A DNA stretch of 55,247 nucleotides from a virus: IMG/VR virus record IMGVR_UViG_3300024346_000082, positions 1 through 55,247 of that record; one strand, 5' to 3'. Shown here in pieces: positions 29,337 to 55,144 of the stretch; within the stretch, counting starts at the first letter, position 1, and each line of letters opens with the position of its first letter. The notes beneath the pieces are model-generated. The model worked only from the letters and a program-made list of their open reading frames with translations. It was not told the DNA's origin and did not search any database. A program made the translations under genes and the position numbers.

Positions 29337-29362
29337 GTTTGGAACTTTAAATTTTCTTTAGT

Positions 29363-29371
29363 ATATTTATT
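29363..29371 (+). promoter_or_regulatory. Putative late promoter element (variant ATATTTATT)
   Basis: Differs from the recurrent nonamer only in the last base. It sits in the 49-nt gap before the glycosyltransferase genes, 14 nt before the ATG, so these genes would be expressed late, with the fibre. Confidence 0.45.
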
Positions 29372-29385
29372 GGAAATAAGTTATT

Positions 29386-32043
29386 ATGAAAAAATTGTTA
29401 TATGTTGCACCGCATCTATCAACTGGCGGACTCCCTCAATATTTAACTAAAAAAATTGAATTACTTAAAGATGAATTTGAAATTTATCTTGTAGAATGGG
29501 TTGATTGTACTGGAGGTATTCTTGTAGTTACAAAAAATAAAATCCAAAACCTTATTGATCCGGATAAATTCTTTACATTAGAAGAAAATAAAATAGAACT
29601 GATTGATATTATTAATCAAGTCCAACCTGATATTATCCATTTGGAAGAAATTCCTGAGTTTTTTATGGATGAAGAAGTAGCCAAACAAATTTATAAACAA
29701 GATAGAAGTTATATCATTATAGAAACGTCACATGATTCTTCTTATAACACAGAAGATAAACGTTTCTTTCCTGATAAATTCATGTTTGTATCTCAATGGC
29801 AAATAAATCAATATAAAGATATTAACGTTCCTAGCGTATTAGTCGAATATCCTATTGAATATATAGAACGTCCTGACCGTGAAGAGGCATTGCGTAATCT
29901 ACAATTAGATCCCGCTAAAAAACACGTTTTACATGTTGGATTATATACATCTCGTAAAAATCAAGCTGAATTTTTTGAATATGCTAAACAATTTCCTGAT
30001 GTGGAATTTCATAGTTTAGGAAACCGAGCAGATAATTTTAAATGGTATTGGGAACCATTAGCTCAAAACACTCCCCCAAATTTAACATGGTGGAACGAAC
30101 GTACAGACGTTGATAAATTCTATCAGGCAATGGATTTATTCTTGTTTACCTCTCGTGGACATGATAATGATAAAGAAACAATGCCATTAGTTATTCGTGA
30201 GGCCATTTCAAATCAAATCCCTACATTAATATATAATCTCCCAGTTTATTTAAATTATTTTGATAAATTTAAAACTATTAATTATTTAAAGTTTGATGAT
30301 TTTAAAATTAATTGTAATAAAATTGCTGAAAAATTAGGTGTTAAAGAATCTAATTTAAATGAAGAAATTTTTATATTATCAACTTTCCCAATAAGTGATA
30401 CTATAGTTGAAACTACATTAAAAACAATTGATTCAATTCATGCTAGAGGAACAAAAGTATTAGTTACATCACATATTCCTGTTCCATTTGCTATAGAAGC
30501 AAAAGCAGATTATGTTGTTGTTGATAACAATAATATTTTAACTAAACATTCATATTATTGTAATTATTGGGCTGATCTTCCTGATCATAAAGTCCATATT
30601 AATTTAAGAGGAAATGATAATGATTTATATCATGGCCCTAGTGTTTATTCAAATTATGTAAACGGTGCTGCTTTAGCTAAAAATTTAGGATATAAAAAAT
30701 TATTCTTTATCAATTTTGATTACACTATTCAAAATACAAAACATATTAATGAAGTATCTGAAATATTAGATAATAAAAAAGCATACTTTGGTAAATATAG
30801 AGCATCAGAAGGTGATGCTTTACATACTTATTTTTATGCTTCCAACTCAGATTTCTTTTTAGATCATGTTCACCAAGTATTTAATACTGAAGATTATGAA
30901 CATTTACGTTTCCAATTAGGAAGTGAAAGTAATGGTTTAGAAAATATGTGGCATCATATATTTAAACGAAGTTCAGATCAAATTTATTTTGAAGATATTG
31001 AAATATTTAATCAAAAAAGTATAGAAACTTTTGATCATTCTGATTTTTCCCAAGTAGAATATTACACTGTACTATCTACTAATATTCCTAACACATTTGC
31101 TCCTTATATTAGAATTTCTAATAGTAAAGAATCAAGATTAATTCAAATTAAAGTACTTGATAAGGATAAAAACGAAGTATTCTTTGATGAATTAAACATA
31201 GAGGGTAAAACAGATTATTATAAAATCCTTCCATACGAAGAAGGAATGGAGGTAGTATTTACTATAAGTAATTACCATAAAATCCTAAAAATCACCACAA
31301 TCCAGGTAACAAATTTAGAATTTAATGGAAGTATTGAAGTAAAAAATCATTTACCTAAAATTAAATTAATGCATTTAGTTACTGAACCTGAAACTAATGA
31401 AAAAGAAATCCGTTCAATAGATAATATTAAAGATTTCTGTAAAAAAACAGGTATATTATACGAACAACGAGTTAATGAAATATGGAAAGGGCTTCCACCT
31501 AAAGAAACATGTGCACGTCCACACGAAATTCAAGAAGTACCTGGTTATTATAAATTAGCTCCTGGACATTATGGTTGTTATTTAGCTCATAAAAATGCTA
31601 TATGCGCTGAGGATAATACAGACTATGATTTTGTATTAATCGTAGAAGGCGATGTTATAGTAGATAGTGATTATCAAGAGTTATATGAATCTTTAATTCG
31701 ATTTAATAAATTATCATATCAAACAGATATGGATGTTATTGGATTTGGAAATCCATGGCAAGATAGAAATTTAAATGGACCTAAAATTGATGACATTTAT
31801 ACAAATGTAACCCCTTTTATCCCAGCACAATCATATTTAATTAATAATATTAAAACTAAAAAAATTAAAACATTATTAGAAACTATGACTTGGGATGCTA
31901 TTGATTTATGGATGTGTAATGTTGCTAAATTAAAAATAGGAACAGCCGAAAAAATTTATACAAAACATCTCCCAGGTTATAGTATTATAGAACAAACTGT
32001 TAAAGATGCTTCAACCGATAACCCTTTAATATTTACAACATAA
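29386..32043 (+). CDS. Multidomain glycosyltransferase (GT-B domain + GT25-like domain)
   Basis: Predicted to transfer two or more sugars. Residues 1-310 form a GT-B/GT4-like unit (VAPHLSTGGLPQYLTKKIELL near the start; HVLHVGLYTSRKNQAEFF, then KETMPLVIREAISNQIPTL). Residues about 320-470 are a second, unassigned alpha/beta domain (ILSTFPISDTIVETTLKTI; HSYYCNYWADLPDHKV). Residues about 545-655 look like a beta-sandwich linker. Residues 659-880 resemble GT25, the family containing LPS galactosyltransferases and procollagen galactosyltransferases: HYGCYLAHKNAI, then LIVEGDVIVD with E754-G-D756 where GT25 usually has E-D-D. It shares a TAATG junction with the next gene. Position beside a collagen-like fibre suggests the fibre as substrate; host surface polysaccharide is the alternative. 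Confidence 0.75.
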   Translation: MKKLLYVAPHLSTGGLPQYLTKKIELLKDEFEIYLVEWVDCTGGILVVTKNKIQNLIDPDKFFTLEENKIELIDIINQVQPDIIHLEEIPEFFMDEEVAKQIYKQDRSYIIIETSHDSSYNTEDKRFFPDKFMFVSQWQINQYKDINVPSVLVEYPIEYIERPDREEALRNLQLDPAKKHVLHVGLYTSRKNQAEFFEYAKQFPDVEFHSLGNRADNFKWYWEPLAQNTPPNLTWWNERTDVDKFYQAMDLFLFTSRGHDNDKETMPLVIREAISNQIPTLIYNLPVYLNYFDKFKTINYLKFDDFKINCNKIAEKLGVKESNLNEEIFILSTFPISDTIVETTLKTIDSIHARGTKVLVTSHIPVPFAIEAKADYVVVDNNNILTKHSYYCNYWADLPDHKVHINLRGNDNDLYHGPSVYSNYVNGAALAKNLGYKKLFFINFDYTIQNTKHINEVSEILDNKKAYFGKYRASEGDALHTYFYASNSDFFLDHVHQVFNTEDYEHLRFQLGSESNGLENMWHHIFKRSSDQIYFEDIEIFNQKSIETFDHSDFSQVEYYTVLSTNIPNTFAPYIRISNSKESRLIQIKVLDKDKNEVFFDELNIEGKTDYYKILPYEEGMEVVFTISNYHKILKITTIQVTNLEFNGSIEVKNHLPKIKLMHLVTEPETNEKEIRSIDNIKDFCKKTGILYEQRVNEIWKGLPPKETCARPHEIQEVPGYYKLAPGHYGCYLAHKNAICAEDNTDYDFVLIVEGDVIVDSDYQELYESLIRFNKLSYQTDMDVIGFGNPWQDRNLNGPKIDDIYTNVTPFIPAQSYLINNIKTKKIKTLLETMTWDAIDLWMCNVAKLKIGTAEKIYTKHLPGYSIIEQTVKDASTDNPLIFTT

Positions 32044-32993
32044 TGAAAATCTGTCAAGTCGATCCGGGTTGTGGTATTCCAATCCCACCTCCAGCATGGG
32101 GAGCTATTGAAAAAATTGTTTGGGAATTTACCCAAAATCTAAAAGAATTAGGACATGAAGTAGATATTAAAATGTCAGGTCAAATTAATCCTGGAGAATA
32201 TGATATAGTTCATTGTCACGTAGCTAATCTAGCAATTCAATTAGCAGAAAGAGGTATACCATATGTTTACCAATTACACGACCATCATGCTTTCTTTTAT
32301 GGTAAGGATTCTCATGTTTATAAAGAAAACCTCCAAGCAATTGAAGGTTCACTTATATCTTTAATGCCTGCTAGATTTTTAGTTGACTACTTTGAAAGTG
32401 ATAAATGTGTTTATTTCTCTCATGGTGTTAACACAAATGAATTATATCCAAAACAAAAAAATACTCCTGCTAATCCAAAACTATTAATGATAGCTAATAA
32501 TGGTTTAGGTGGAGATCCTACATTTGATAGAAAAGGTTTTGCTTTAGGGTTAGGGTTAGCAATGCTTAATAATTTAGAAATTACAATAGCAGGCCCTTCA
32601 GATAATAAAAGATTTTTTAATGGACACCTGTGGATGTTAGGTTACCCTAAACTAAACTTGGTTTTTGATACTCCTAATAGTAAATTATTGGAATTATATC
32701 ACACCCACGATATTTTTATACACCCAACTATTTTAGAAGCTGGACATCCTAATTTAACAATGATTGAAGCAGCAGCTGCTGGTTTACCTCTTATTGCTAA
32801 CTGGGAAATTGAAACAGATTTTCACGGTGCTTGGAGATCTCCACGTGATGTATTTGAAATGGATAGAGGTTTAAAAGATATATTAAGTAATTGGTCATTA
32901 TATAGAGATAAATTAGTAGTAACATCTCAAGAATTATCATGGTTTAACCGTTCTAAAGAATTAATTAAAGTATATGAAAGAAATATTGATTAA
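32043..32993 (+). CDS. Glycosyltransferase family 4-like
   Basis: GT-B-fold glycosyltransferase of 316 residues. The N-terminal domain has PPPAWGAIEKIVWEFTQNL (16-34), the usual Gly/Ala-rich acceptor-side loop, and VHCHVANLAIQL. The C-terminal domain carries E232-A-G-H-P-N-L-T-M-I-E242 followed by AAAAGLPLIA, a variant of the E-x7-E donor-binding motif with nine rather than seven residues between the glutamates. The nucleotide sugar is unknown. It starts on the last base of the preceding glycosyltransferase stop and its end overlaps the following gene by 20 nt, so the three act as one unit. The shortness (GT4 is often 350-400) suggests a trimmed phage form. Confidence 0.78.
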   Translation: MKICQVDPGCGIPIPPPAWGAIEKIVWEFTQNLKELGHEVDIKMSGQINPGEYDIVHCHVANLAIQLAERGIPYVYQLHDHHAFFYGKDSHVYKENLQAIEGSLISLMPARFLVDYFESDKCVYFSHGVNTNELYPKQKNTPANPKLLMIANNGLGGDPTFDRKGFALGLGLAMLNNLEITIAGPSDNKRFFNGHLWMLGYPKLNLVFDTPNSKLLELYHTHDIFIHPTILEAGHPNLTMIEAAAAGLPLIANWEIETDFHGAWRSPRDVFEMDRGLKDILSNWSLYRDKLVVTSQELSWFNRSKELIKVYERNID

Positions 32994-34173
32994 GGAGTAT
33001 AATAACACCCCCCAATTAAACATTCCAAATAAGGAAAATAATAATACATTTAAGTTTAATTTTTTAAAAGGAGCATTTTTAGAAATTATAGGTTCTAACT
33101 CTAAAACATATGTAGCTAAATTTTTTAATAAATCTAAAGATGAATTAGTATATGAAGCAGAGATTACTAACAATATGTGGACCAAACCAGGTATTGAATA
33201 TTTCATTAATTGGAGAATTGAAGTTTACGATAAAGAAAATGATGAATTAGTATTCGAACATGATTTTAATGCTAGAGAAAAAAGAGTTTATATTCATTTA
33301 GAGTCCTCAGCATTAGGTGATACCTTAGCTTGGTTTCCGTTTATAGATGAATTTAGAAAAGTTCATAAATGTCATGTAATATGTTCAACATTTCACAATG
33401 AATGGTTTGAAAAAGAATACCCTGAATTAGAATTTGTTACCCCAGGTACTGAAGTACATGATTTATATGCTATGTACAATATTGGTTGGTTTTATAATGA
33501 AGATAGAACTATAAATAATTTAAAAATCCCAATTGATTTTAAACAACATCCATTAGGAGAAACATCAACATCTGTATTAGGATTATCTTATGTAGAAACT
33601 AAACCAAAAATTAATGTTCCTAATAAGGGAAGACAAATTCATGGTAAATATGTTGTTATTGCACCTCACGCTTCAGCACATGCTAAATATTGGAATTACC
33701 CAGGCGGATGGCAAACAGTAATTGATTATTTAAATGCAAAAGGATATAAAGTAGTAATAATCACCCAAGAAAAATTAGGTGATAAATGGCATGATTCAAA
33801 ATTAGGAGGTAAATTAAAAGGAGTAATTAATAAAACAGGTAATTATCCGATTGAAGATAGAATGGTAGATATTAAACACGCTGATGCTTTTATAGGTGTT
33901 GGTAGTGGGTTATCTTGGTTAGCATGGTCTATAGGTACACCTGTAATACTAATCTCAGGATTTAGTTTACCATATAGTGAGTTTCTTGATTGTGAACGTA
34001 TATTTAACTATGATACTAATGTATGTAATGGATGTTTTAATAGAGAATGGTTAAATCCGGGTGATTGGGAATGGTGTCCTGATCATAAAGATACACCACG
34101 TCAATTTGAGTGTACAAAAACTATTAAACCTTCTCAAATAATTGAATCTCTTAACAAACTTCTTAATATTTAA
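32974..34173 (+). CDS. TibC/BAHT-like protein O-heptosyltransferase (GT9-type)
   Basis: Resembles bacterial autotransporter heptosyltransferases, which add heptose to Ser residues of repetitive surface adhesins. Residues 1-105 form the beta-rich N-terminal domain (ending NWRIEVYDKENDELVFEHDF). The core starts with VYIHLESSALGDTLAWFPF (109-127), then CSTFHNEWFEKEYPEL and a stretch on LYAMYNIGWFY. The donor side has APHASAHAKYWNYPGGW and GVGSGLSWLAW. Near the end four cysteines, C351, C354, C368 and C380, form a C-x2-C-x13-C-x11-C pattern like the metal finger of that family. Cytoplasmic enzyme; the sugar donor (ADP-heptose in the family) would have to come from the host. The N-terminal ATG lies inside the previous gene. 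LPS heptosyltransferase activity is the alternative. Confidence 0.75.
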   Translation: MKEILIKEYNNTPQLNIPNKENNNTFKFNFLKGAFLEIIGSNSKTYVAKFFNKSKDELVYEAEITNNMWTKPGIEYFINWRIEVYDKENDELVFEHDFNAREKRVYIHLESSALGDTLAWFPFIDEFRKVHKCHVICSTFHNEWFEKEYPELEFVTPGTEVHDLYAMYNIGWFYNEDRTINNLKIPIDFKQHPLGETSTSVLGLSYVETKPKINVPNKGRQIHGKYVVIAPHASAHAKYWNYPGGWQTVIDYLNAKGYKVVIITQEKLGDKWHDSKLGGKLKGVINKTGNYPIEDRMVDIKHADAFIGVGSGLSWLAWSIGTPVILISGFSLPYSEFLDCERIFNYDTNVCNGCFNREWLNPGDWEWCPDHKDTPRQFECTKTIKPSQIIESLNKLLNI

Positions 34174-34183
34174 TATAGAACGA

Positions 34184-34192
34184 ATATTTATA
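34184..34192 (+). promoter_or_regulatory. Putative late promoter element ATATTTATA
   Basis: An exact nonamer 8 nt before the ATG at 34201 of the small coiled-coil gene. The short leader makes this copy less certain. Confidence 0.4.
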
Positions 34193-34200
34193 TCGTGAAT

Positions 34201-34446
34201 ATGTTTTTAACCCCTGAAGAGTTACATTTATTAAATCAACTAAATAACCAACGAGAAAATTTAAAAAATCAACTTGGTAATTTAGAATATGAGTTACAAT
34301 GTTTAAAAAATAAAAAAAATAAATTAATCCAAGAATTACAAGTTTTAGAAGAAAATTGTTCTAAAATTGGAATTGAGTTACAAGAAAAATATGGTGAAGT
34401 CGCTTTAAATTTAAAAACAGGCGAATTTAAAAATATTCACGAATAA
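34201..34446 (+). CDS. Small coiled-coil protein, 81 aa
   Basis: Function not recognised. Residues 5-60 show heptad-spaced Leu/Ile/Asn with Glu/Lys flanks (LNQLNNQRENLKNQLGNLEYE), a clear coiled coil, followed by a short tail EKYGEVALNLKTGEF that looks like a beta hairpin. The ATG at 34201 is preferred over an in-frame GTG six bases upstream because no other gene here clearly uses GTG. It stands alone between two copies of the late promoter element, just before the sheath gene, so it may be a tail accessory or chaperone. That role is inference. Confidence 0.7.
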   Translation: MFLTPEELHLLNQLNNQRENLKNQLGNLEYELQCLKNKKNKLIQELQVLEENCSKIGIELQEKYGEVALNLKTGEFKNIHE

Positions 34447-34468
34447 ATGACTTTTAAAAATTTTTAAC

Positions 34469-34477
34469 ATATTTATA
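34469..34477 (+). promoter_or_regulatory. Putative late promoter element ATATTTATA (tail sheath)
   Basis: An exact nonamer in the 56-nt gap before the sheath gene, 25 nt before the ATG. Confidence 0.5.
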
Positions 34478-34502
34478 ACAGAATAAAAAACAACTCATTA
34501 AC

Positions 34503-36227
34503 ATGGCCGAATCATTAATATCCCCAGGAGTCCTCGCATCCGAAAATGATAACTCATTTGTTTCCCAAGGACCCATCAGAAATAGTGCTGCTATTCTTGG
34601 ACCTACAGTAATAGGACCTGTTGAAGTTCCAACTATTGTTACTTCATACAGTGATTATACTAATAAATTTGGTTCTACTTTCCTTAGCGCTAGTAACGTT
34701 TACTCATTTTTTACCTCAATTACAGCATATAATTATTTTGCTAACGGTGGTGAAACTTTATTAGTAACTAGAGTAGCTAGTGGTTCATACACATCTGCAA
34801 CATCATCCTTTATTTCAGGTAGTACAGCAGGAGCTATTGCAAGTGGTAGTGCCTTTACTTTAACTACTATCTCTCAAGGTACTATTATGAATAGTACTAG
34901 TTCTTTAGATGTTAGTGGATCATTAGCATCAGGTTCAAACTATAACCTTAGATGGCAAATTGCAAATTCAAATACAGCCTCAGGCACATTTGATTTATTT
35001 ATTAGACGAGGTAATGACAACACCAATAATGTTGTTATATTAGAAAACTGGACTAATTTATCATTAGATCCAACTCAACCAAACTTTATTTCTAAAGTAA
35101 TTGGGGATCAATACGATGTATATAACACATCTTCTCTTTCAGTACAAACTGTAGGTAATTACAAACGTAATTCAAAATATGTTTATGTATCTAGTATTGA
35201 TTCAGATTTCTTAATGCCTAACTATTTTGACAATAGTGGATATCCAACTACAGCATATGCTGCCTTTATGCCTGCTAGTAATAGTGGATCATTTGGTAGT
35301 GCTGTTGGTACATTAAAAGCAGGAGCTAATTTTTATGATACAATCAATACTTCTAATACTCAAGGATTAATAGCTCTTAATTATACAAATTCAATTAATT
35401 TAATGTCTAACCAAGATGCTTATAAATTTAATGTATTAGTAACTCCTGGTTTATATAATTCCGATACTAACTACGGTGCTCAAATGACTACTATTATCAA
35501 TAATACTCAAAATAGAGGTGATAATATTTTTATAGCAGATTTAGTACCTTATGGTTCAACCGTATCCTCAGCAACTACACAAGCAGGAAATAGAAATACT
35601 TCATATGCAGCTTCATATTGGCCTTGGGTTCAAATCGTTGAACCAGATTCAGGACAATTAGTATGGATCCCAGCATCAACAGTAATTCCTGGTGTATTTG
35701 CTTACAATGATACAGTATCTGAGCCATGGTTTGCACCAGCAGGTATTAATAGAGGTGGTTTAAATCTTGTAGTTAAAGCAGAAACTAAATTAACTCAAAC
35801 CCAACGCGATAATCTTTATATAGGAGCTGTAAACCCAATAGCTACATTCCCTGCAAACGGAGTAGTAGTATATGGTCAAAAAACATTACAGAAAAAAGCA
35901 TCAGCTTTAGATCGTGTAAATGTTCGTCGTTTGTTAATTGCTCTTAAAAATTTCATTTCAGAAGTAGCTCAAAACTTAGTATTCGAACAAAATACAATCG
36001 CTACAAGAAATTCATTTTTAGCATCCGTAAACCCATACTTGGAAACAGTACAACAAAAACAAGGTTTGTATGCTTTTAAAGTAATTATGGACGATAGTAA
36101 CAACCCAGCAGATGTAATCGATAGAAACCAAATGGTAGGTCAAATTTATATTCAACCAACCAAAACGGCCGAATTTATTTACTTGGATTTCAACATCTTA
36201 CCAACAGGTGCAACATTCCCTGGATAA
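34503..36227 (+). CDS. 18: Tail sheath protein (T4 gp18-like)
   Basis: Contractile sheath subunit. The N-terminus LISPGVLASENDNSFVSQGP is the classic opening of myovirus sheath proteins, followed by GPTVIGPVEVPTIVTSYSDY. Residues about 90-330 form the variable outer domain. The C-terminal part (NGVVVYGQKTLQKKASALDR; VNVRRLLIALKNFISEVAQ; QMVGQIYIQPTKTAEFIYLD) is the conserved inner domain that grips the tube. It has 574 residues versus 659 in T4. The leader is aaaaaacaactcattaac, no Shine-Dalgarno. The tube gene follows behind its own promoter element. Confidence 0.93.
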   Translation: MAESLISPGVLASENDNSFVSQGPIRNSAAILGPTVIGPVEVPTIVTSYSDYTNKFGSTFLSASNVYSFFTSITAYNYFANGGETLLVTRVASGSYTSATSSFISGSTAGAIASGSAFTLTTISQGTIMNSTSSLDVSGSLASGSNYNLRWQIANSNTASGTFDLFIRRGNDNTNNVVILENWTNLSLDPTQPNFISKVIGDQYDVYNTSSLSVQTVGNYKRNSKYVYVSSIDSDFLMPNYFDNSGYPTTAYAAFMPASNSGSFGSAVGTLKAGANFYDTINTSNTQGLIALNYTNSINLMSNQDAYKFNVLVTPGLYNSDTNYGAQMTTIINNTQNRGDNIFIADLVPYGSTVSSATTQAGNRNTSYAASYWPWVQIVEPDSGQLVWIPASTVIPGVFAYNDTVSEPWFAPAGINRGGLNLVVKAETKLTQTQRDNLYIGAVNPIATFPANGVVVYGQKTLQKKASALDRVNVRRLLIALKNFISEVAQNLVFEQNTIATRNSFLASVNPYLETVQQKQGLYAFKVIMDDSNNPADVIDRNQMVGQIYIQPTKTAEFIYLDFNILPTGATFPG

Positions 36228-36243
36228 GAAATTTAAAAATTAA

Positions 36244-36252
36244 ATATTTATA
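36244..36252 (+). promoter_or_regulatory. Putative late promoter element ATATTTATA (tail tube)
   Basis: An exact nonamer in the 48-nt gap between sheath and tube genes, 23 nt before the tube ATG, giving the abundant tube protein its own start. Confidence 0.5.
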
Positions 36253-36275
36253 ACAAAATTAAATAAATAAACAAA

Positions 36276-36764
36276 ATGGCAATATTAGATTCTAACGAAA
36301 TATTTTTCACCGCGTTTGAACCAAAACAGGCGAACCGATTCATCATGTATATTGATGGTATTCCTTCATACGAAATTAAAGGTGTAAGTGCTATTACGGT
36401 AAACTCAGGTACAGTTCAATTAAACCATATTAACGTTCAACGTTATGTTAAAGGTATGACTAAATGGGATCCTATTACATTTACATTGTTTGATCCTATT
36501 ACTCCCTCCGGAGCTCAAGCAGTAATGGAATGGGTACGTTTACACCACGAATCAGTAACAGGACGTGATGGTTATTCGGATATGTATAAGAAAGATTTAA
36601 CATTTAACGTATTAGGACCTGTAGGTGACATCGTATCAGAATGGATTTTAAAAGGATGTTTTATCACAAGTGCTAACTTCGGTGAATATAACTGGGACAC
36701 AGCAGACACAGCAGTAAATCTTACAATGGTAGTTCAACCTGATTATTGTGTATTGAATTTCTAA
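36276..36764 (+). CDS. 19: Tail tube protein (T4 gp19-like)
   Basis: Subunit of the inner tail tube. It has 162 residues, as in T4 gp19 (163). The FEPKQANRFIMYIDGIPSYE opening (12-31), the middle KGMTKWDPITFTLFDPI, and the C-terminal GCFITSANFGEYNWDTAD are characteristic. It is placed directly after the sheath gene and ends in a strong terminator, as expected for a highly expressed gene whose product is needed in larger amounts than the downstream chaperone. Confidence 0.93.
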   Translation: MAILDSNEIFFTAFEPKQANRFIMYIDGIPSYEIKGVSAITVNSGTVQLNHINVQRYVKGMTKWDPITFTLFDPITPSGAQAVMEWVRLHHESVTGRDGYSDMYKKDLTFNVLGPVGDIVSEWILKGCFITSANFGEYNWDTADTAVNLTMVVQPDYCVLNF

Positions 36765-36788
36765 TAAATTTTTAAAAATAATCTAAGA

Positions 36789-36821
36789 AAGCTCGCATTT
36801 TTTGCGAGCTTCCTTTTTTTT
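36789..36821 (+). terminator. Rho-independent terminator after the tail tube gene
   Basis: A perfect 9-bp stem AAGCTCGCA/TGCGAGCTT with a T5 loop, then cctttttttt. A late promoter element follows immediately (36825). Confidence 0.9.
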
Positions 36822-36824
36822 CAT

Positions 36825-36833
36825 ATATTTATA
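36825..36833 (+). promoter_or_regulatory. Putative late promoter element ATATTTATA (tail chaperone)
   Basis: An exact nonamer directly after the tube terminator and 31 nt before the next ATG. A promoter is needed here because the terminator closes the upstream transcript. Confidence 0.55.
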
Positions 36834-36864
36834 TACGACAACAAAGTTATACTAAATAAAAATT

Positions 36865-37611
36865 ATGGACAGCAAAATCAAATTTCCTACGGAAACAATC
36901 GAATTACCTTCAAAAGGTTTATTATACCCTGAAGGACATCCTCTATCAAGCGGTAAAGTTGAAATGAAATACATGACTGCTAAAGAAGAAGACATTCTTA
37001 CTAATCAAAATTATATCAAACAAGGTATTGTAATTGATAAATTACTTCAATCTTTATTGGTTACTAAATTTAATTATGAAGATTTATTTCTTGGAGATAA
37101 AAACGCTATATTAGTAGCAGCTCGCGTTTTAGGGTATGGTAAAGATTATTCTTTTACCTATAATAATGAAGAAATCACAGTTAATCTTGCAGAGCTTCCA
37201 TCGGTTGAATTAGATGAATCCTTAATTCTTGAAAAAGGAGTTAATTTATTTAAATATATTTTACCACATTCTCAAAATGAAATAACTTTTAAATTACTTA
37301 CAGGAAAAATGGAAAAAGATATTGATGCTGAAGTAAAAGGACTTAAACGTATTAATAAAAATAATTCTGCTGAACTTTCAACCCGTTTAAAACATCAAAT
37401 TTCTTCAGTAAACGAAGATGAAGATCAAAAAACAATTAGAGAGTTTATAGATAATTATCTTTTAGCAAAAGATGCTTCTGCTTTTAGAGTTTATCTTAAA
37501 TCAATTAACCCTGATGTAAAAATGACTTTTTTATACGAAGGTGAAAATAGCGAAGAGGAGGTAGCTATTCCTTTACAGGTCCAGTTTTTTTGGCCTGACG
37601 CAAGAGTATAG
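36865..37611 (+). CDS. 26: Tail assembly chaperone / baseplate protein (T4 gp26-like)
   Basis: Predicted tail-assembly chaperone related to T4 gp26, acting with the tape measure at the start of hub and tube assembly. It has 248 residues (gp26 208). The N-terminus ETIELPSKGLLYPEGHPL, then VEMKYMTAKEEDILTNQNYI and GIVIDKLLQSLLV, is the family signature. It occupies the place that G-type chaperones hold in many tailed phages: directly before the tape measure. The zero-frame product ends QVQFFWPDARV at a TAG. Seven T at 37585-37591 in the last codons precede a continuous +1 frame, indicating that part of the product is probably extended by frameshifting into the next ORF. Confidence 0.85.
   Translation: MDSKIKFPTETIELPSKGLLYPEGHPLSSGKVEMKYMTAKEEDILTNQNYIKQGIVIDKLLQSLLVTKFNYEDLFLGDKNAILVAARVLGYGKDYSFTYNNEEITVNLAELPSVELDESLILEKGVNLFKYILPHSQNEITFKLLTGKMEKDIDAEVKGLKRINKNNSAELSTRLKHQISSVNEDEDQKTIREFIDNYLLAKDASAFRVYLKSINPDVKMTFLYEGENSEEEVAIPLQVQFFWPDARV
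37585..37591 (+). promoter_or_regulatory. Candidate programmed frameshift site (T7 run)
   Basis: TTTTTTT read in zero frame as TTT TTT TGG, 18 nt before the chaperone TAG (37609-37611). The +1/-2 frame is open from 37565 through the downstream ORF to 37829, so a slip here gives one fused protein. Either a +1 or a -2 slip keeps Phe-tRNA paired on this run. Confidence 0.6.
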
Positions 37612-46317: not shown

Positions 46318-47598
46318 ATGTTTTGGTTAATCGAAACTCAACAACAGGTTGAGCATCTTATAAATAAAAAATACAAAGAAGCATTTGTGGAGATAATTCC
46401 ACATCACGATAAAATACATTCTGCTTTAAATAATGTATCTTTAGTGTATTTTAGACCGTCTAATGAATCAAAAGGTTTTATGTTATGTATTGACCATAGT
46501 GAGACATTAAATGTAAGTACAACATTAGTAAACGCGTTATTAACGTCAATTGAGTGTCTATGGGTGCGTGACAAGAAGAATGCGCTATATTACTTTCAAA
46601 TTAAGGGCCTGCGCGATATAAACATACTCATTCCTCCGTATATACAAGATCAAACACCAACCCACACATATTTTTATAACAAGTATCCGGACAATCTAAA
46701 AATAAATAAAATAATTCCGGTAGTTAAGCATTATGAAGTATGTGAAAATATTTATAATAAGGTAAAACCACATTTTACACAGGATTTACCTACGTACTTT
46801 GACTTTTATAATAATAAATCAACAATCGCATTCTTTGGAATCGAAAAAAATGGAATAAACATAGATGAAACAGTTTTTAATGAATATTTTAGCCAAATCA
46901 ATCCTCACTACTCAATCAGTGATGGTAAAGTCTACACCAGTTATAACTTATTTACAACTACACGTAGACCAAGTAACACTTTTAATGGCCTTAATTTTGC
47001 CGCATTAAACAAAGATAATGGTTCAAGGAGAAGCTTTATACCGAGTCATGGGTTTGTGGAATACGATATTAGTGCATATCATCCTCATCTCGCTAGTCGT
47101 TTGGTTGCCTATGATTTTGGCGATGTGGATGTCCACCAAGCATTCGCGGACCTATATGGGACGAGCTATAAAGAAGCCAAAGAACTCACGTTTAAGCAAC
47201 TATACGGAGGCGTATTTAAAGAGTATGAGCACCTTGAATTTTTTCAACAAGTAAAGAAATTTATTGATAACAACTGGAATGAGTTTAATAACTCGGGACA
47301 AGTTTCTGTGCCAATTTCAGGTTATTGCTTTAAAAAGAGCGAGTTGGAAAATATGAATCCACAAAAGTTGTTTAATTATATATTACAAAATTTGGAAACT
47401 TCAATGAATGTTTGTATATTAACGGAGTTAAATAAATTGTTAAGAGGTAAAAACACTAAATTGGTATTATATACTTATGACAGTTTTTTACTAGATTATG
47501 ACGAAAGTGAAAATTTATTAAATGACATAGAAAACATTTTTAAAAATAAAAAATTACAAATAAAGGTTAAGCATGGAAGCAGTTACGATTTTGAATAA
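46318..47598 (+). CDS. Short family A DNA polymerase (PolA-like)
   Basis: Predicted DNA polymerase of only 426 residues. Family A landmarks in order: a TGR-type template loop at TTTRRPSNTFNGLNFAALNK (213-232); motif A VEYDISAYHPHLASRL (247-262) with catalytic D250; motif B AKELTFKQLYGG (287-298) with K288, F292 and Y296 at PolA spacing; motif C TYDSFLLD (386-393) with D388. The arginine normally four residues before K288 is missing, and motif C reads Y-D-S instead of H-D-E. The N-terminal 160 residues show no clear 3'-5' exonuclease D-x-E motif and no 5' nuclease. T4 itself uses a family B polymerase, so this is either a replacement or an accessory polymerase. It heads the replication operon and overlaps the next gene by 26 nt. 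Confidence 0.8.
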   Translation: MFWLIETQQQVEHLINKKYKEAFVEIIPHHDKIHSALNNVSLVYFRPSNESKGFMLCIDHSETLNVSTTLVNALLTSIECLWVRDKKNALYYFQIKGLRDINILIPPYIQDQTPTHTYFYNKYPDNLKINKIIPVVKHYEVCENIYNKVKPHFTQDLPTYFDFYNNKSTIAFFGIEKNGINIDETVFNEYFSQINPHYSISDGKVYTSYNLFTTTRRPSNTFNGLNFAALNKDNGSRRSFIPSHGFVEYDISAYHPHLASRLVAYDFGDVDVHQAFADLYGTSYKEAKELTFKQLYGGVFKEYEHLEFFQQVKKFIDNNWNEFNNSGQVSVPISGYCFKKSELENMNPQKLFNYILQNLETSMNVCILTELNKLLRGKNTKLVLYTYDSFLLDYDESENLLNDIENIFKNKKLQIKVKHGSSYDFE

Positions 47599-48031
47599 TC
47601 ATCATAATATTTATTGGGAGAAAACTCAATTAAATTATAAAGATTTGAACAATAAGTTATTTTGTACGTTCGTTACAGAAGATGTACTAGAAGAAATGGT
47701 TTCTAGTATTTCAGATACATACACTATAATGTATAATAAAATGTTTGTCCTTTTTGTTAAAAGCACAAATGAATATGTTATTACATACAATGTAGATCAA
47801 GGAAATATTAATAATATTCCCGTGAATACTATTCTAGTACATAGGAAAAAAGAAACCAACACCTTATATACAATTAACGCCCTAAATGATTTAATTAAAA
47901 AATTAAATGGTGGAGTGGTTGATGTTGCCTTTAGAGTAAATTGGCAACACTATCAAAATTGTATTCTCCTAACCCAAAATGGAGACTTAAAACAATTGAA
48001 TACAAAAGTTTACAAGATTGTAGAACTATAA
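47573..48031 (+). CDS. Hypothetical protein overlapping the polymerase gene, 152 aa
   Basis: Function not recognised. It starts 26 nt inside the polymerase gene, so translation is likely coupled and the product could be a polymerase partner. The sequence is rich in Asn, Val, Ile and Thr with predicted alternating strands (MYNKMFVLFVKSTNEYVITY) and no metal-binding or P-loop motif. The 57-nt gap after it contains gtatattcacgttataaatataaa, which may be a promoter for the SSB gene. Confidence 0.65.
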   Translation: MEAVTILNNHHNIYWEKTQLNYKDLNNKLFCTFVTEDVLEEMVSSISDTYTIMYNKMFVLFVKSTNEYVITYNVDQGNINNIPVNTILVHRKKETNTLYTINALNDLIKKLNGGVVDVAFRVNWQHYQNCILLTQNGDLKQLNTKVYKIVEL

Positions 48032-48088: not shown

Positions 48089-48922
48089 ATGGATTTAAAT
48101 GAAATGAAAAACAGACTGTCTGCAATGCAGTCAAAATCCGCTGGTAAAGGCGGTGGAGAGAAAAAATCCGTTTTTTGGAAACCATCTGTAGGTAAACAAA
48201 TTGTTCGAGTTGTACCATCTAAGTACAATAAGAAGAATCCGTTTACTGAAATGTATTTCCATTACGGTATTGGTAAAAACACTATGGTGTCTCCAATCAA
48301 CTGGGGTGAGAAAGATCCTATTGTAGAATTCGCAAAACAATTGCGTAGCACAAGTGACAAAGAAAACTGGCGCTTGGCTAAAAAACTTGATCCTAAAATG
48401 CGTATTTTCGTTCCCGTAGTAGTACGTGGCGAAGAAGCAGAAGGTGTTAAGTTATGGCAGTTCGGTAAAGAGTTGTACATGGATTTCTTGAACCTTGCTG
48501 ATAATGAGGACGTAGGAGATTTTACAGATGTAATGATCGGTCGAGACATTACGTTAACAACAGTAGGTCCTGAAGTAACAGGTACAAACTACAACAAGAC
48601 TACTATTATGCCTAAAGTTAGAGAGACAGCATTGGCAGCTGATAAAGCTGAAATTGAAGCGTTGTTGGAAAACCAACCTAACCCAATGGAAGTCTTTAAA
48701 AAGCATTCATTCGACGATATGAAGCAAGCACTTCAAGAACATTTAACTCCTGAAGAAGAGTATGAAGAAGGTGCTATCATCGATGATGAAAAAGAAGAAG
48801 AAGTAGCTCCACAATCAACTGGAAAAACTTATTCTATCAAAACCCCAGCAGCTGCTAAAGTAAGCAAAGCAGATAAGTTTGATTCATTATTTGATGAAGA
48901 AGACGACGACTTACCCTTTTAA
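48089..48922 (+). CDS. 32: Single-stranded DNA-binding protein (T4 gp32-like)
   Basis: Binds ssDNA during replication and recombination and loads UvsX and helicase. It has 277 residues (T4 gp32 301). The N-terminus is a basic, Lys/Gly-rich segment for cooperativity, followed by VFWKPSVGKQIVRVVPSKYN and a core including FGKELYMDFLNL. The C-terminus is a classic acidic partner-binding tail ending FDEEDDDLPF. The zinc-binding Cys/His cluster of T4 gp32 is absent: the corresponding region (MYFHYGIGKNTMVSPINWGE) has no Cys, and the whole protein has none. It is followed 13 nt later by uvsX. Confidence 0.85.
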   Translation: MDLNEMKNRLSAMQSKSAGKGGGEKKSVFWKPSVGKQIVRVVPSKYNKKNPFTEMYFHYGIGKNTMVSPINWGEKDPIVEFAKQLRSTSDKENWRLAKKLDPKMRIFVPVVVRGEEAEGVKLWQFGKELYMDFLNLADNEDVGDFTDVMIGRDITLTTVGPEVTGTNYNKTTIMPKVRETALAADKAEIEALLENQPNPMEVFKKHSFDDMKQALQEHLTPEEEYEEGAIIDDEKEEEVAPQSTGKTYSIKTPAAAKVSKADKFDSLFDEEDDDLPF

Positions 48923-48935: not shown

Positions 48936-50018
48936 ATGGCTAAAAGTAAAAAAAGCGAATCGCTTACGGCTGCTCTATCCTCTGAACTTAGATCAAATTT
49001 CGATTTGACTAAGTTTAAAGAGAAGAAAATGCTTAATTCAAATGTAAAATTTAAAGAGCAAAGATGGATCCCTCTTAGTCCTGCATTTCAGGACGTAACA
49101 TCCGTACCCGGCATTCCTATGGGCCATATTATACTTCTTAGAGGTCATAGTGATACAGGTAAGACAACTGCAATGATTGAAGCAGCAGTGTCTGCTCAAA
49201 AAATGAAAGTTTTACCTGTGTTCATTATTACCGAAATGAAGTGGAATTGGGAGCATGCTACCCAAATGGGGTTACAAGTAAACGAAATTGTAGATGAAAC
49301 AACAGGTGAAGTCCTAAATTACGAAGGTAATTTTATTTACGTTGACCGTGAAACATTACACACTATTGAAGATGTAGCTGCTTTTATTCTTGATTTATTA
49401 GATGAACAGAAAAAAGGCAATTTACCTTACGATTTGTTGTTCTTATGGGACTCAATCGGTTCGGTTCCTTGTGAATTATCCGTTCGTTCAAATAAAAATA
49501 ATAATGAATGGAATGCAGGTGCAATGAGCACACAATTTGGTAATAATGTTAACCAAAAAATGACATTATCACGTAAAGAGTCTTCACCTTACACTAATAC
49601 ATTAGTATGTGTAAATAAAGTTTGGACAGCAAAAGCCGAAGTACCAATGGGTCAACCAAAGTTAATGAACAAAGGTGGATTTGCAATGTGGTTTGATGCT
49701 ACATTTGTAGTAACATTTGGTAATATTTCAAATGCTGGTACATCTAAAATCAAAGCGATTAAAGATGGTAAGCAAGTTGAATTTGCTAAACGAACCAACA
49801 TCCAGATTGATAAAAATCACATCAATGGTGTTCAATCAAGAGGAAAAATCATTATGACTCCACACGGATTCATTAACGATACTGATAAGGAACTTAAAAC
49901 ATATAAAGATGCACACGCATCTGAATGGATGAAAATACTTGGAAGTATGGATTTTGATATTTTTGAAGAAAATGATTCATTTGAATCACAAAATATCTTC
50001 ACACAAGAACCGGATTAA
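48936..50018 (+). CDS. uvsX: UvsX recombinase (RecA family)
   Basis: ATP-dependent strand-exchange protein for recombination-dependent replication and repair. Walker A is GHSDTGKT (70-77), Walker B is DLLFLWDS (166-173), and the catalytic Glu lies in FIITEMKWNWEHA (about 97-109). It has 360 residues versus 391 in T4. The N-terminal segment with RWIPLSPAFQDVTSVPGIPM is typical of phage UvsX. The C-terminus is acidic. The stop is separated from the following 5' nuclease ATG by one nucleotide. Confidence 0.92.
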   Translation: MAKSKKSESLTAALSSELRSNFDLTKFKEKKMLNSNVKFKEQRWIPLSPAFQDVTSVPGIPMGHIILLRGHSDTGKTTAMIEAAVSAQKMKVLPVFIITEMKWNWEHATQMGLQVNEIVDETTGEVLNYEGNFIYVDRETLHTIEDVAAFILDLLDEQKKGNLPYDLLFLWDSIGSVPCELSVRSNKNNNEWNAGAMSTQFGNNVNQKMTLSRKESSPYTNTLVCVNKVWTAKAEVPMGQPKLMNKGGFAMWFDATFVVTFGNISNAGTSKIKAIKDGKQVEFAKRTNIQIDKNHINGVQSRGKIIMTPHGFINDTDKELKTYKDAHASEWMKILGSMDFDIFEENDSFESQNIFTQEPD

Positions 50019-50019
50019 T

Positions 50020-51057
50020 ATGAAGAAAAATGAACTATTTAAACTTCTTGACAGTGTAGTTGAGGAGAATGACAGTGTATCAGCTAACAAGTATGATAGA
50101 GTACTTTTAATTGATGGATTAAATCTCTTTTTTAGGAACTTTGCGATGATGAATATTGTAAATTCCCAAGGAGCACATGTTGGTGGTTTAGGTGGTTTTA
50201 TGCGTTCATTAGGATCCTTAATTAATCAAATACAACCTACTTCAGTATTTGTAGTATTCGATGGAATTGGTTCTTCCACAAATAGGAAGAACCTACTCCC
50301 CGAGTATAAATCAGGTCGTAACTTAACCCGAATTACAAATTGGGAAGTATTTGAAAACCTAGAAGATGAAGATGATGCTAAGATCAACCAAATTGTTCGA
50401 ATTGCTCATTATCTAAAATGTTTACCTGTTAAAACGGTTGCTATTGATAAAGCAGAAGCAGATGATATTATAGCGTATTATAGTGATATTTTACCAAAAA
50501 CATATAATTCCAAATGTTTCATTGTATCATCGGATAAAGACTTTATACAACTGATTAACGACAATGTTATTGTGTATCGTCCGATAGAAAGAGAATATTA
50601 TACTAAAGACACAGTTAAAGAAAAATTTGGTGTATTAGCAGATAACTTTATCCTATACAAAATGTTACTGGGTGACAACTCAGATAAAATAGCAGGTATA
50701 AAAGGTTTAGGTGCTAAGGGATTATTGAAAAAATTTCCTGAACTATCTACTGATATACTAACCTTAGATGACATTTTCCAAATTGCAGAAGAAAAACATA
50801 AGGAACATGTTATTTATGCTCGTATCGCTTTTGAAAGAGATAGATTAGAGCAAAATTATAAAATTATGAACCTTAAAAAACCTTTATTAGACGATAATGA
50901 TAAAGAATTTTTAAGAGAATTTTCCGAAGAAGATAATTTAGCTTTGAATAGTGAAACGTTTTTACGATTTTACCACGATGATGGTTTAGGCCATTTAATC
51001 AAGAATGTAGAGTTTTGGATTAAAGACACTTTTAAAGTATTAAGCAGTTTTAAATAA
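50020..51057 (+). CDS. rnh: 5'-3' exonuclease / flap endonuclease (T4 RNase H-like)
   Basis: Removes RNA primers and flaps from lagging-strand fragments. The 345-residue form from ATG 50020, one base after the uvsX stop, is preferred; the longer frame back to 49939 overlaps uvsX and adds unlikely residues. All FEN metal ligands are visible: D32 in LLIDGLNLFFRNF, D81 in VVFDG, E146/D148/D149 in AEADDI, D172 and D174 in SSDKDF, D219 and D222 in LLGDNSDKIAGIKGLGAKG (helix-hairpin-helix). T4 RNase H has 305 residues. It lies between uvsX and the helicase gene, consistent with replication-fork work. Confidence 0.9.
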   Translation: MKKNELFKLLDSVVEENDSVSANKYDRVLLIDGLNLFFRNFAMMNIVNSQGAHVGGLGGFMRSLGSLINQIQPTSVFVVFDGIGSSTNRKNLLPEYKSGRNLTRITNWEVFENLEDEDDAKINQIVRIAHYLKCLPVKTVAIDKAEADDIIAYYSDILPKTYNSKCFIVSSDKDFIQLINDNVIVYRPIEREYYTKDTVKEKFGVLADNFILYKMLLGDNSDKIAGIKGLGAKGLLKKFPELSTDILTLDDIFQIAEEKHKEHVIYARIAFERDRLEQNYKIMNLKKPLLDDNDKEFLREFSEEDNLALNSETFLRFYHDDGLGHLIKNVEFWIKDTFKVLSSFK

Positions 51058-51065: not shown

Positions 51066-52439
51066 ATGACATTAAGCAATTTATCCCAATATGGGATCAG
51101 TTTTCAAATCAAAGTACTATCCTCACTATTAACACATAAGGAATTCTTATTGAATATCCATGATGTTCTTAGTGAAGAGTATTTTGATAACCAAGCACAC
51201 AAATGGGTTATTAAAGAAATCCTAAAATATTATCAAAAATACCATACTTGTCCTTCAATGGATGTGTTGAAAGTAGAATTGAAGAAAATTGATAACGAGG
51301 TACTTCAAGTAGCCGTTAAAGAGCAACTTCGTGAAGCTTATAAATCATCAGATGAAGATTTAAAGTATGTTGAAGAAGAATTTTCTAATTTTTGTAAAAA
51401 TCAACAATTAAAAACAGCGTTGTTAAGCAGCGTTAATTTCCTTAATGCCGGAGATTATGATACTATCCGTTCACTAATTGATAACGCATTAAAATCGGGT
51501 CAAGACAAAAATGTTGGACATGAGTATAATAAGGAAGTTGAATCTCGTTATAGAGAAGATCATAGAGTTGTAGTACCTTGCCCTTGGGATGCATTTAGTA
51601 ATTTATTACAAGGTGGTTTAGGTAATGGTGATTTTGGATTAATATTTGGTAATCCTGGGGGTGGTAAATCTTGGACATTAATTGCTTTAGGTGGTTATGC
51701 TGTTAAAATGGGTTACAATGTATTACATTATACATTAGAATTAGGTGAAGATTATGTAGGTCGTCGTTATGATGCTTATTTTACTAATATTCCCGTAAAT
51801 AAAATTTCTGAACAAAAATATAGATCTAAAGTAGAAGAAGTAATTGCTGATTTACAAGGACAATTAATTATTAAAGAATATTCCCCAGGTAAAGCATCAA
51901 TTTCTACTATTGAATCACACATTAAAAAATGTATTGATCAAGATTTTAAACCAGATTTGATTATTATTGATTATGTAGATCTTCTTCGTTCAAAAAGAAC
52001 AAACCGTGAGCGTAAAGATGAGATAGATGATATTTATATTAGCACTAAAGCACTTGCTAAAGACTTACAATTACCAGTTTGGTCTGTATCTCAAGTAAAT
52101 CGCGCAGGTGCAAAAGACGATATTATTGAAGGAGATAAAGCAGCAGGATCATACGATAAAATGATGGTTACTGATGTTGCTATATCCTTATCAAGAAAAC
52201 GTCAAGATAAAGTTAACGGAACAGGAAGATTTCACATTATGAAAAACAGATATGGTATGGATGGAATGAGCTTTAATGTTAAAGCAGATACATCAACAGG
52301 CCATTTTGAAGTTTCTGAACGTATGGAGGATGATGAGGAAGAAACAACTTCCCAAAAATCAAATTTCCAATCCTTTAATACAATTGATACCATGGACAAA
52401 AAAGAACTTAGAAACAAATTTTTCGAACTCAATTCCTAA
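51066..52439 (+). CDS. 41: Replicative DNA helicase (T4 gp41/DnaB-like)
   Basis: Hexameric 5'-3' fork helicase. It has 457 residues (T4 gp41 475). An N-terminal helical domain (1-150) resembles DnaB-N. Walker A is GNPGGGKS (195-202), Walker B is DLIIIDYVDLL with D302, and the downstream SQVNRAG motif matches DnaB motif H4/sensor. An arginine-finger region is expected near the C-terminal RFHIMKNRYGMDG. No primase domain is present. The acidic, Ser-rich C-terminal tail may bind partners. The gene is 8 nt after the 5' nuclease gene and 8 nt before nrdB. Confidence 0.92.
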   Translation: MTLSNLSQYGISFQIKVLSSLLTHKEFLLNIHDVLSEEYFDNQAHKWVIKEILKYYQKYHTCPSMDVLKVELKKIDNEVLQVAVKEQLREAYKSSDEDLKYVEEEFSNFCKNQQLKTALLSSVNFLNAGDYDTIRSLIDNALKSGQDKNVGHEYNKEVESRYREDHRVVVPCPWDAFSNLLQGGLGNGDFGLIFGNPGGGKSWTLIALGGYAVKMGYNVLHYTLELGEDYVGRRYDAYFTNIPVNKISEQKYRSKVEEVIADLQGQLIIKEYSPGKASISTIESHIKKCIDQDFKPDLIIIDYVDLLRSKRTNRERKDEIDDIYISTKALAKDLQLPVWSVSQVNRAGAKDDIIEGDKAAGSYDKMMVTDVAISLSRKRQDKVNGTGRFHIMKNRYGMDGMSFNVKADTSTGHFEVSERMEDDEEETTSQKSNFQSFNTIDTMDKKELRNKFFELNS

Positions 52440-52447: not shown

Positions 52448-53425
52448 ATGACAAATATTACAAAACCCCGGTTAGTATACAAACCATTTGAGTACCAAGA
52501 AGCAGCTGATTACTGGCTTAAACAACAACAAGCACACTGGTTACACACAGAAGTACCAATGATGTCTGATTTAACAGATTGGAATTCAAATTTAAATAAA
52601 ACTGAAAAAAATATTATTGGTTCTATTTTAAAAGGATTTGCACAAACTGAAACTGTTGTAAATGATTATTGGTCAGGATTAGTAACAAAATGGTTCCGTA
52701 AACCTGAAATTATTATGATGGCTACTACATTTGGTGCCTTTGAAACAATTCATGCTGAAGCTTATTCATTATTAAACGAAACATTAGGTCTTGATAACTT
52801 TGATGAATTCCTAGAAGATGAAGCTACAATGGCCAAAATCCAGAATTTAATGAATGTAAGAGATAGTTTTCAAGGTGAAACAGATTGGCACGAAGTAGCT
52901 AAATCATTAGCAATTTTCTCAGCATTTACAGAAGGTGTCAATTTATTCTCTTCATTTGCAGTATTATTAAGCTTTAAAATGCGTAATAAACTTAAAGGTG
53001 TTGGTCAAATTGTTGAATGGTCTATTCGTGATGAGTCTCTCCACTCCGAAGCTGGATGTTGGTTATTTAGAACATTAGTTCAAGAAAATCCTAAACTCAA
53101 AACTCAAGAACTTGAAGCAGCTATTAATGAAGCAGCATTACTTTCTCTTAAACTTGAGCTTGATTTTGTTAATAAGATTTATGAGCTTGGTGATTTAGAA
53201 GGTTGTTCACAATATGATTTAGAGCACTTTATTAAAAATAGAGTAAATACTAAATTAGGAGATTTAGGATACAAACCAATTATTTCAAATATAGATTTAA
53301 AAGCAGTAGAAAGAATGAAATGGTTTGATCACTTATCAGCAGGTAAACAACATACTGATTTCTTTGCAAATCGTGTAACTAATTATTCAAAAGGTCATAT
53401 AACTTGGGACGAATCAATTTTTTAA
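52448..53425 (+). CDS. nrdB: Ribonucleotide reductase small subunit (class Ia NrdB)
   Basis: Houses the di-iron centre and tyrosyl radical used by NrdA. Ligands fall at the expected spacing: E68, E99, H102, then E162 in FTEGVNLF, and E196 and H199 in RDESLHSEAG. The radical Tyr is Y106 in ETIHAEAY. The first ligand is Glu rather than the Asp of E. coli, a known variation. It has 325 residues (T4 NrdB 388). The order nrdB then nrdA is the reverse of T4. It supplies dNTPs together with the replication genes just upstream. Confidence 0.93.
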   Translation: MTNITKPRLVYKPFEYQEAADYWLKQQQAHWLHTEVPMMSDLTDWNSNLNKTEKNIIGSILKGFAQTETVVNDYWSGLVTKWFRKPEIIMMATTFGAFETIHAEAYSLLNETLGLDNFDEFLEDEATMAKIQNLMNVRDSFQGETDWHEVAKSLAIFSAFTEGVNLFSSFAVLLSFKMRNKLKGVGQIVEWSIRDESLHSEAGCWLFRTLVQENPKLKTQELEAAINEAALLSLKLELDFVNKIYELGDLEGCSQYDLEHFIKNRVNTKLGDLGYKPIISNIDLKAVERMKWFDHLSAGKQHTDFFANRVTNYSKGHITWDESIF

Positions 53426-53431: not shown

Positions 53432-55144
53432 ATGGACAATAATTTATCAGTAGACTATACGCAGTGGGAACGTGGAAAAGATTATCCCGAATATTTTGAT
53501 GAAGTAGCATTATCAACTATTTCTAAAGGTTACTTACTACCAGGTGAAACACCTAGAAAAGCATACCGAAGAGTAGCACACGCTGTAGCGATGCGTTTAA
53601 ATCGCCCTGACTTAGAAAATAAATTCTTTAAATACATTTGGAATGGATGGATTGGACTTGCTAGCCCAGTACTCTCGAACACGGGGACAGACAGAGGATT
53701 ACCGATTAGTTGCTTTGGCATCGATACTCCAGATTCAATCAGAGGTATTGGCCTTACGAACGCAGAACTTATGCGACTTACCTCTTACGGAGGTGGAGTT
53801 GGAATCTCCCTCTCAAGAATTAGAGGTAGAGGATCAAACATTACAGGAAACGGACAATCCGAAGGAGTAGTTCCTTGGGCTAAAATTTATGACTCAACTA
53901 TTATTGCAACAAACCAAGGTTCAGTACGTAGAGGAGCAGCATCCGTAAATTTAGATATTAATCATGTTGATATTAAAGAATTTTTACAAATCCGTAGACC
54001 CAAAGGCGATCCTAATAGACAATGTCTTAACCTACATCAATGTGTAGTTGTTGATGATGCGTTTATGAAGCGTTTAAATGACCGTGATAGTGAAGCTATG
54101 TCGCTGTGGTTAGAAATTCTTAAATCGCGTGTAGAGACAGGAGAACCATATGTTATGTTTAAGGATAATATTAACAAAGATAATCCATTAGCTTATCGTA
54201 TGAATAATCTTGACGTCAGTATGACTAATATTTGTACTGAAATCACATTACATACAGATGAAGAGCATTCATTTATTTGTTGTTTAAGTTCATTAAATTT
54301 AGCTAAGTATGATGAATGGAAAAACACAGATGTAATTGAAACAGCAGTTTATTTCTTAGATGGTGTAATGGAAGAATTTATCGTTAAAACAAATGGTAAA
54401 GATTCTATGATTCGTTCACATAGACATGCTAAAAAAGGTCGTGCATTAGGATTAGGTGTAATGGGTTGGCACACATTCTTACAACAAAAGAATTTACCAT
54501 TTAACTCAATTGCCTCTACTGCTTGGACACATACTATCTTCAGTGATATTAAAGTTAAAGCTGAAGCAGCTTCACGTCAATTAGCTGCTGAATATGGAGA
54601 ACCACTTTGGTGTAAAAATACAGGTATGAGAAATACTCACTTATTAGCTATTGCTCCAACAGTATCAAATTCTCGTATCAATGCTTGCTCAGCAGGTATT
54701 GAACCCCAACCAGCAAATGTTTATGTATTTAATGGTGCTAAAGGAACGTTTATTGTTAAAAATCCTGAATTAGAAAAATTATTAAAATCAAAAGATAAAA
54801 ATAGTAGTAAGGTTTGGGATCAAATCTTAGCAGATAATGGCTCAGTACAAAATTTATCTAATGATGTCTTAGCTGAAGATGAAAAATCAGTATTCCTAAC
54901 ATTCCCAGAAATAAACCAATTAGCTTTAGTACAACAAGCAGCTGCACGTCAACGTTATATTGACCAAACACAATCCTTAAACTTAGCATTTGACCCAACT
55001 GATTCCCCAAGGTGGATTAATCAGGTACATATGGAAGCTTGGAAATTAGGAATTAAAACATTATATTATCTACGAACAGATTCAGTTATTAAAGGTGACT
55101 TAGGTTCACGTACAGCTGACGATTGCCAAGCCTGTGATGGATAA
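53432..55144 (+). CDS. nrdA: Ribonucleotide reductase large subunit (class Ia NrdA, no ATP cone)
   Basis: Catalytic subunit that reduces ribonucleotides. Active-site residues are all present: C94 in ISCFG, N266-x-C268-x-E270 in TNICTEI, a Cys pair at 283-284, radical-transfer Y545-Y546 in TLYYLRT, and C-terminal thiol pair C565/C568. It has 570 residues against about 750 in T4 and E. coli. The shortfall is mainly at the N-terminus, where the ATP-cone overall-activity domain is missing, so dATP feedback through that site is not expected. It is 6 nt after nrdB. The ORF is complete, ending at TAA 55142-55144. Confidence 0.93.
   Translation: MDNNLSVDYTQWERGKDYPEYFDEVALSTISKGYLLPGETPRKAYRRVAHAVAMRLNRPDLENKFFKYIWNGWIGLASPVLSNTGTDRGLPISCFGIDTPDSIRGIGLTNAELMRLTSYGGGVGISLSRIRGRGSNITGNGQSEGVVPWAKIYDSTIIATNQGSVRRGAASVNLDINHVDIKEFLQIRRPKGDPNRQCLNLHQCVVVDDAFMKRLNDRDSEAMSLWLEILKSRVETGEPYVMFKDNINKDNPLAYRMNNLDVSMTNICTEITLHTDEEHSFICCLSSLNLAKYDEWKNTDVIETAVYFLDGVMEEFIVKTNGKDSMIRSHRHAKKGRALGLGVMGWHTFLQQKNLPFNSIASTAWTHTIFSDIKVKAEAASRQLAAEYGEPLWCKNTGMRNTHLLAIAPTVSNSRINACSAGIEPQPANVYVFNGAKGTFIVKNPELEKLLKSKDKNSSKVWDQILADNGSVQNLSNDVLAEDEKSVFLTFPEINQLALVQQAAARQRYIDQTQSLNLAFDPTDSPRWINQVHMEAWKLGIKTLYYLRTDSVIKGDLGSRTADDCQACDG

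Follow-up and report, generated by a model that had tools for sequence, protein, structure and literature searches.

A thumb-truncated family A DNA polymerase (divPolA1) in the T4-like replication operon of uncultured phages: a putative auxiliary to the main replicase

The polymerase divPolA1 was described by Yutin et al. 2024 (PMC11348598) in 14 phages, including Flavobacterium phage immuto. As characterized in the text of that paper, divPolA1 combines a conserved palm with a truncated thumb and an exonuclease inactivated by replacement of all three catalytic aspartates, and the genomes that encode it also carry a regular family A, B or C polymerase and conserved replication genes downstream. 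In the literature searched, the name occurs only in this paper and its preprint. The divPolA2 of barbaviruses, described in the same text, is likewise an extra PolA found beside a PolB replicase and devoid of proofreading or a normal thumb; however, its unrelated N-terminal domain and variable gene neighborhood set it apart by the paper's own description.

The DNA analyzed here (the window) is the whole of a 55,247-base public virus record. On the plus strand, at 46318–47598, it contains a single ORF with an ATG start and a 426-aa product. Judged by its sequence, this protein belongs to the already described divPolA1 group: it is related to the immuto protein, retains the palm catalytic residues, has a truncated thumb and is followed by replication genes. 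The divPolA1 of immuto (gene 1) shares with it the catalytic palm, the truncated thumb, an apparently inactivated exonuclease domain and the downstream replication genes, whereas the window copy sits in a clade whose regular polymerase is of family B. As far as the text of PMC11348598 shows, what our analysis adds is the abundance of the group, an invariant histidine at the sugar gate (of which that text makes no mention), a near-universal gene order over hundreds of loci and the persistence of divPolA1 through an apparent swap of the main replicase.

Single-sequence searches of Pfam (including PF00476), the PDB, NCBIfam and PHROGs with the window protein returned no convincing match. By tblastn, relatives were found in phage immuto (annotated as "DNA polymerase family A"), Microcystis phage Mel-JY01 and the uncultured 484-kb phage LR756508. 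Immuto gene 1 (MW353175) aligned with 36.8% identity over 99% of the query (E = 4e-80), or ~37–38% over the whole length. This member passes the curated cut-off of PF00476 (DNA_pol_A) with 42.7 bits, and 24 of 115 members match the family at E < 0.01. HHalign comparison of the divPolA1 profile with that of full-length phage PolA gave a probability of 99.3% (E = 2e-19, 414 columns); the alignment starts in the exonuclease domain and backs the register of motifs A, B and C. Structural modeling, named as a check in a preliminary description of this DNA, yielded a confident Klenow-type fold: the AlphaFold model has a mean pLDDT of 94.3, and its alignment with Pol I large fragments scores Z ~26, with ~390–400 residues aligned and an rmsd of 3.5–4 Å, the top matches being the Klenow, Bst, Mycobacterium and apicoplast polymerases. 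The alignment, profile and fold comparisons together show that the polymerase is a complete but shrunken Klenow fold.

Relatives of the protein are encoded on at least 575 contigs or stretches found in one search of a metagenomic collection, and divPolA1 is thus common in uncultured phages; a scan of the collection with the LR756508 protein as query returned zero relatives. Among close relatives dN/dS is ~0.14–0.26, indicating purifying selection, in a set of equal-length sequences compared unaligned that leaves out one relative, L037, which is apparently shifted. This selection and the conservation across hundreds of contigs rule out a chance ORF at 46318–47598. Few bacterial-genome contigs contain divPolA1, and half of these lie within Flavobacteriales MAGs; therefore, Bacteroidota are plausible hosts.

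For residue-level comparison we aligned 115 dereplicated sequences that are 25–86% identical to the window protein. The Pol I large fragments (Klenow, Bst) and the window protein share a fold with an exonuclease-like domain, palm and fingers, the aspartates of motifs A and C, and the Lys, Phe, Tyr and Gly of motif B. Unlike these fragments, the window protein is ~150 residues shorter, its thumb is nearly absent, the proofreading DxE is missing, and the 5' nuclease is encoded by a separate gene; in its active site the sugar-gate Glu is replaced by His, the Arg before motif B by Tyr, and HDE by YDS. The preliminary description called the enzyme exonuclease-less, which is true of the catalytic residues and not of the fold. 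Residues ~1–150 (46318–46767, plus strand) form a degenerate 3'-5' exonuclease domain, as judged from the HHalign register against the full-length PolA of immuto, column counts and the model. In this domain the exo I DxE is absent, position 27 being I, F, L or V in 115/115 sequences and position 29 mostly Y or S, while the exo II Asp is aligned by profile, in an uncertain register, to D85 (D in 78, N in 35 and G in 2 of the 115). The loss of the thumb is more drastic than that of the exonuclease. A stump of ~residues 151–209 (46768–46944, plus strand) is what is left of it: profile alignment shows that almost the whole thumb of full-length phage PolAs is missing, and the span from E176 to Y209, where those enzymes have a large insertion, is 15–33 residues long in all 115 members.

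The polymerase motifs A, B and C, as the preliminary description had noted, are all located in the 426-residue protein. Motif A (residues 250–257; 47065–47088, plus strand) reads D250-I-S-A-Y-H255, where D250 is invariant and H255 replaces the sugar-gate Glu (E. coli E710). Motif B, on the O-helix (residues 284–297; 47167–47208, plus strand), contains K288-E-L-T-F292-K-Q-L-Y296-G297; the Arg that should precede its Lys (E. coli R754) is indeed missing, position 284 being Tyr here and in 113 of the 115 sequences. Motif C (Y385-T-Y387-D388-S389; 47470–47484, plus strand) carries the reported Y-D-S as Y387-D388-S389, and column counts show that its Asp is invariant and that E883 is replaced by Ser (63 sequences) or Ala (52 sequences). 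Among the residues outside the exonuclease domain, R217, N226, R237, D250, H255, K288, F292, Y296, G297, K350, N353, Q357, Y387 and D388 are invariant in 115/115 sequences.

The presence of both catalytic aspartates (D250 and D388) and of the nucleotide-binding Lys, Phe and Tyr of motif B in every sequence argues for activity. The departures can be compared with Thermus phage Tt72 PolA, an active enzyme in which the E883 position is naturally Ser, as in the window protein, and which, unlike that protein, is full-length, proofreads strongly and keeps the sugar-gate Glu (PMC9324360). Activity falls to 76% in the Tt72 S616A variant, to 35% in E389A, the E710 equivalent, and to ~4% when either Asp is mutated (PMC9324360). 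Because S616A and E389A remain active, the E883 and E710 departures of divPolA1 would, by analogy, each be compatible with catalysis. Absence of both R754 and the thumb falls outside the Tt72 experiment, and a polymerase that lacks R754 and has other residues at E710 and E883 could be less active or inactive. Changes at all three of these positions and the near absence of a thumb would also be expected of a catalytically dead pseudo-polymerase that acts as a scaffold for replication proteins, as would an exonuclease domain that retains invariant but non-catalytic residues (H34, H60, K87 and D100). Such a scaffold is nevertheless quite improbable, given that the metal-binding Asp pair and the motif B residues are invariant across 115 diverse sequences and that a PolA with measured activity has the same change at E883 and still works when the E710 side chain is removed (PMC9324360).

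The histidine at the sugar gate raises the question of whether divPolA1 uses or tolerates ribonucleotides, as an enzyme that makes or extends RNA primers. H255 is present in 115/115 sequences at the position where PolA DNA polymerases carry Glu, and motif C, YD[SA], recalls the HDS motif of T7-type RNA polymerases. The sugar-gate Glu is described as the residue that blocks ribonucleotides (PMC9324360). However, the bulk of His may be enough to exclude a 2'-OH, the fold is that of DNA polymerases I, and a DnaG-like primase is already encoded in 12/12 genomes tested. The primase disfavors a priming role and weakens the case that divPolA1 is needed as a primase, and we regard ribonucleotide use as very unlikely.

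The genes downstream of the polymerase, all on the plus strand, bear out the T4-like replication operon proposed in the preliminary description. The ORF listing and the loci of relatives place next a 152-aa protein (47573–48031), whose ORF shares 26 nt with the polymerase gene and adjoins it in nearly every relative. Pfam and PHROG matches then identify a gp32-like single-stranded DNA-binding protein (SSB; 48089–48922; PF08804, E = 1.4e-11; phrog_1192), a UvsX/RecA-like recombinase (48936–50018; phrog_97, E = 4e-16), a FEN-like 5'-3' exonuclease, the domain that is fused to Pol I in bacteria (50020–51057, with the start set at the ATG following the UvsX stop; PF02739, E = 3e-35), a DnaB/gp41-like replicative helicase (51066–52439; phrog_19, E = 4e-82), and the small (NrdB; 52448–53425; PF00268, E = 2e-62) and large (NrdA; 53432–55144; PF02867, E = 3e-104) subunits of ribonucleotide reductase. 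The family B replicase of T4, gp43, shares the context of a T4-like replication operon but belongs to another polymerase family, and in the relatives of the window PolB is found elsewhere.

Across three clades the genes almost always run in the order polymerase, 152-aa protein, SSB, UvsX, 5' nuclease, helicase. The 152-aa gene occurs at every IMG/VR locus with enough sequence on its flanks; SSB, UvsX and the 5' nuclease occur at every such locus in the window and immuto clades and at most of those in the Mel clade (65/69, 51/59 and 33/46, respectively). This gene order ties divPolA1 to replication and not to a particular gap-filling step. The near-invariable company of UvsX and SSB would suit a specialized recombination or translesion polymerase that extends UvsX D-loops or bypasses lesions and has little part in Okazaki fragment processing, and loss of proofreading and thumb would suit error-tolerant synthesis. 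Yet the operon equally holds the 5' nuclease and helicase, and the invariant O-helix residues are ordinary PolA ones. We therefore consider this specialization unlikely.

The core of the 152-aa protein is strongly conserved (TILVHRKKxTNTLYTINALNxLI), and it has weak similarity to DUF5866 (E = 0.011). Among 50,697 phage records, those with a match to it are exactly the records that hold divPolA1. As evidence for a dedicated divPolA1 partner this co-occurrence proves little, because the gene upstream of the polymerase and the SSB gene likewise track the same phage lineage. That a His-gated divPolA1 accepts ribonucleotides, in primer extension or in mixed RNA/DNA gap filling, with its thumb supplied by this adjacent protein, has in our estimate a slimmer chance than ribonucleotide use as such.

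The preliminary description had offered, as one of two options, that a minimal PolA replaced the replicase. A divPolA1 that had supplanted the family B replicase and now copied the entire genome would fit the location of its gene in the replication operon and our failure to find a PolB in the 55-kb window. But the window is shorter than the genomes of its relatives and hence a genome fragment, so its own lack of PolB says nothing. In the 23 large relatives searched, PolB is encoded in 12, full-length PolA in 10 and neither in 1, a fragment. The 20 large IMG/VR records comprise 10 with PolB, 9 with a full-length PolA of ~780 aa and one 114-kb record with neither; immuto has a separate 777-aa PolA with an exonuclease domain, and Mel-JY01 and LR756508 have PolB. 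The nearest large relative (locus L079), 83% identical, encodes an 868-aa PolB. Because large relatives hold PolB or full-length PolA, we reject replacement of the replicase by divPolA1, the chance of which is vanishingly small. A family C polymerase as a hidden replicase was likewise rejected, being found among 12 genomes tested only in LR756508, which has PolB too. This 484-kb phage (LR756508.1; locus L006, record W03) thus combines divPolA1, PolB (matched by two open frames) and a match to family C, three polymerase families in all.

The clade to which the window belongs has PolB as its main replicase, the immuto clade a full-length PolA. In a tree that was rooted at the midpoint and has some long branches, the members whose replicase is PolA group in a single clade (support 100/99), its sister is the PolB clade of the window, and other PolB lineages lie outside. 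This topology suggests a swap of the main replicase between families A and B, during which divPolA1 kept its place in the operon.

The other option of the preliminary description, a dedicated auxiliary polymerase for repair or the lagging strand, is compatible with the evidence, the role itself being one that we infer. We propose, with a probability of about 0.6, that divPolA1 is a second, auxiliary family A polymerase beside the main replicase: an active, low-processivity, non-proofreading enzyme that would have the 5' nuclease, SSB and recombinase as partners in gap filling. The presence of a main replicase in 22/23 large relatives favors the auxiliary role. Without a thumb, the presumably active enzyme would grip DNA weakly and add few nucleotides per binding event, that is, act distributively. 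It would fill short gaps on SSB-coated templates, which would arise chiefly on the lagging strand as the 5' nuclease removes RNA primers, and it may also act at recombination (D-loop) intermediates made by UvsX. So arranged, divPolA1 and the 5' nuclease would amount to a Pol I split over two genes. T4 is not known to use a second polymerase in maturing its lagging strand. An ATP-dependent ligase was not found in 11/12 relatives' genomes tested and, with its presence in only 1/12, was set aside as a general partner; the last Okazaki step would thus need the host's ligase or one of another type.

The remainder of the window contains a T4-like structural module (portal, major head protein, tail sheath and baseplate hub; 92–8891 and 34503–37611), upstream of the replication operon and on the same plus strand. 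A 4661-aa ORF (14650–28635, plus strand) probably encodes a giant collagen-like tail-fibre protein: it has 66 stretches of collagen triple helix and ends in an S74 endosialidase-type chaperone domain. Long antisense ORFs at 22983–25319 and 25929–28040 seem to arise only from its repeats. An 885-aa protein (29386–32043, plus strand), whose gene is flanked by those for tail fibre and tail sheath, has a group 1 glycosyltransferase domain. The genome of immuto (L001) has an annotated 7-deazaguanine DNA-modification set (FolE, QueD, QueE, QueC, QueF-like and DpdA) at 18607–37015.

Known from 14 genomes, divPolA1 is common in uncultured phages and under purifying selection, and it appears to have remained in one operon as its phages changed between a family A and a family B main replicase. 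Cut to roughly a palm, fingers and a degenerate exonuclease domain, and with an invariant His at its sugar gate, this polymerase allows direct tests of how much of a PolA activity requires and of what a second polymerase contributes to a phage replisome.
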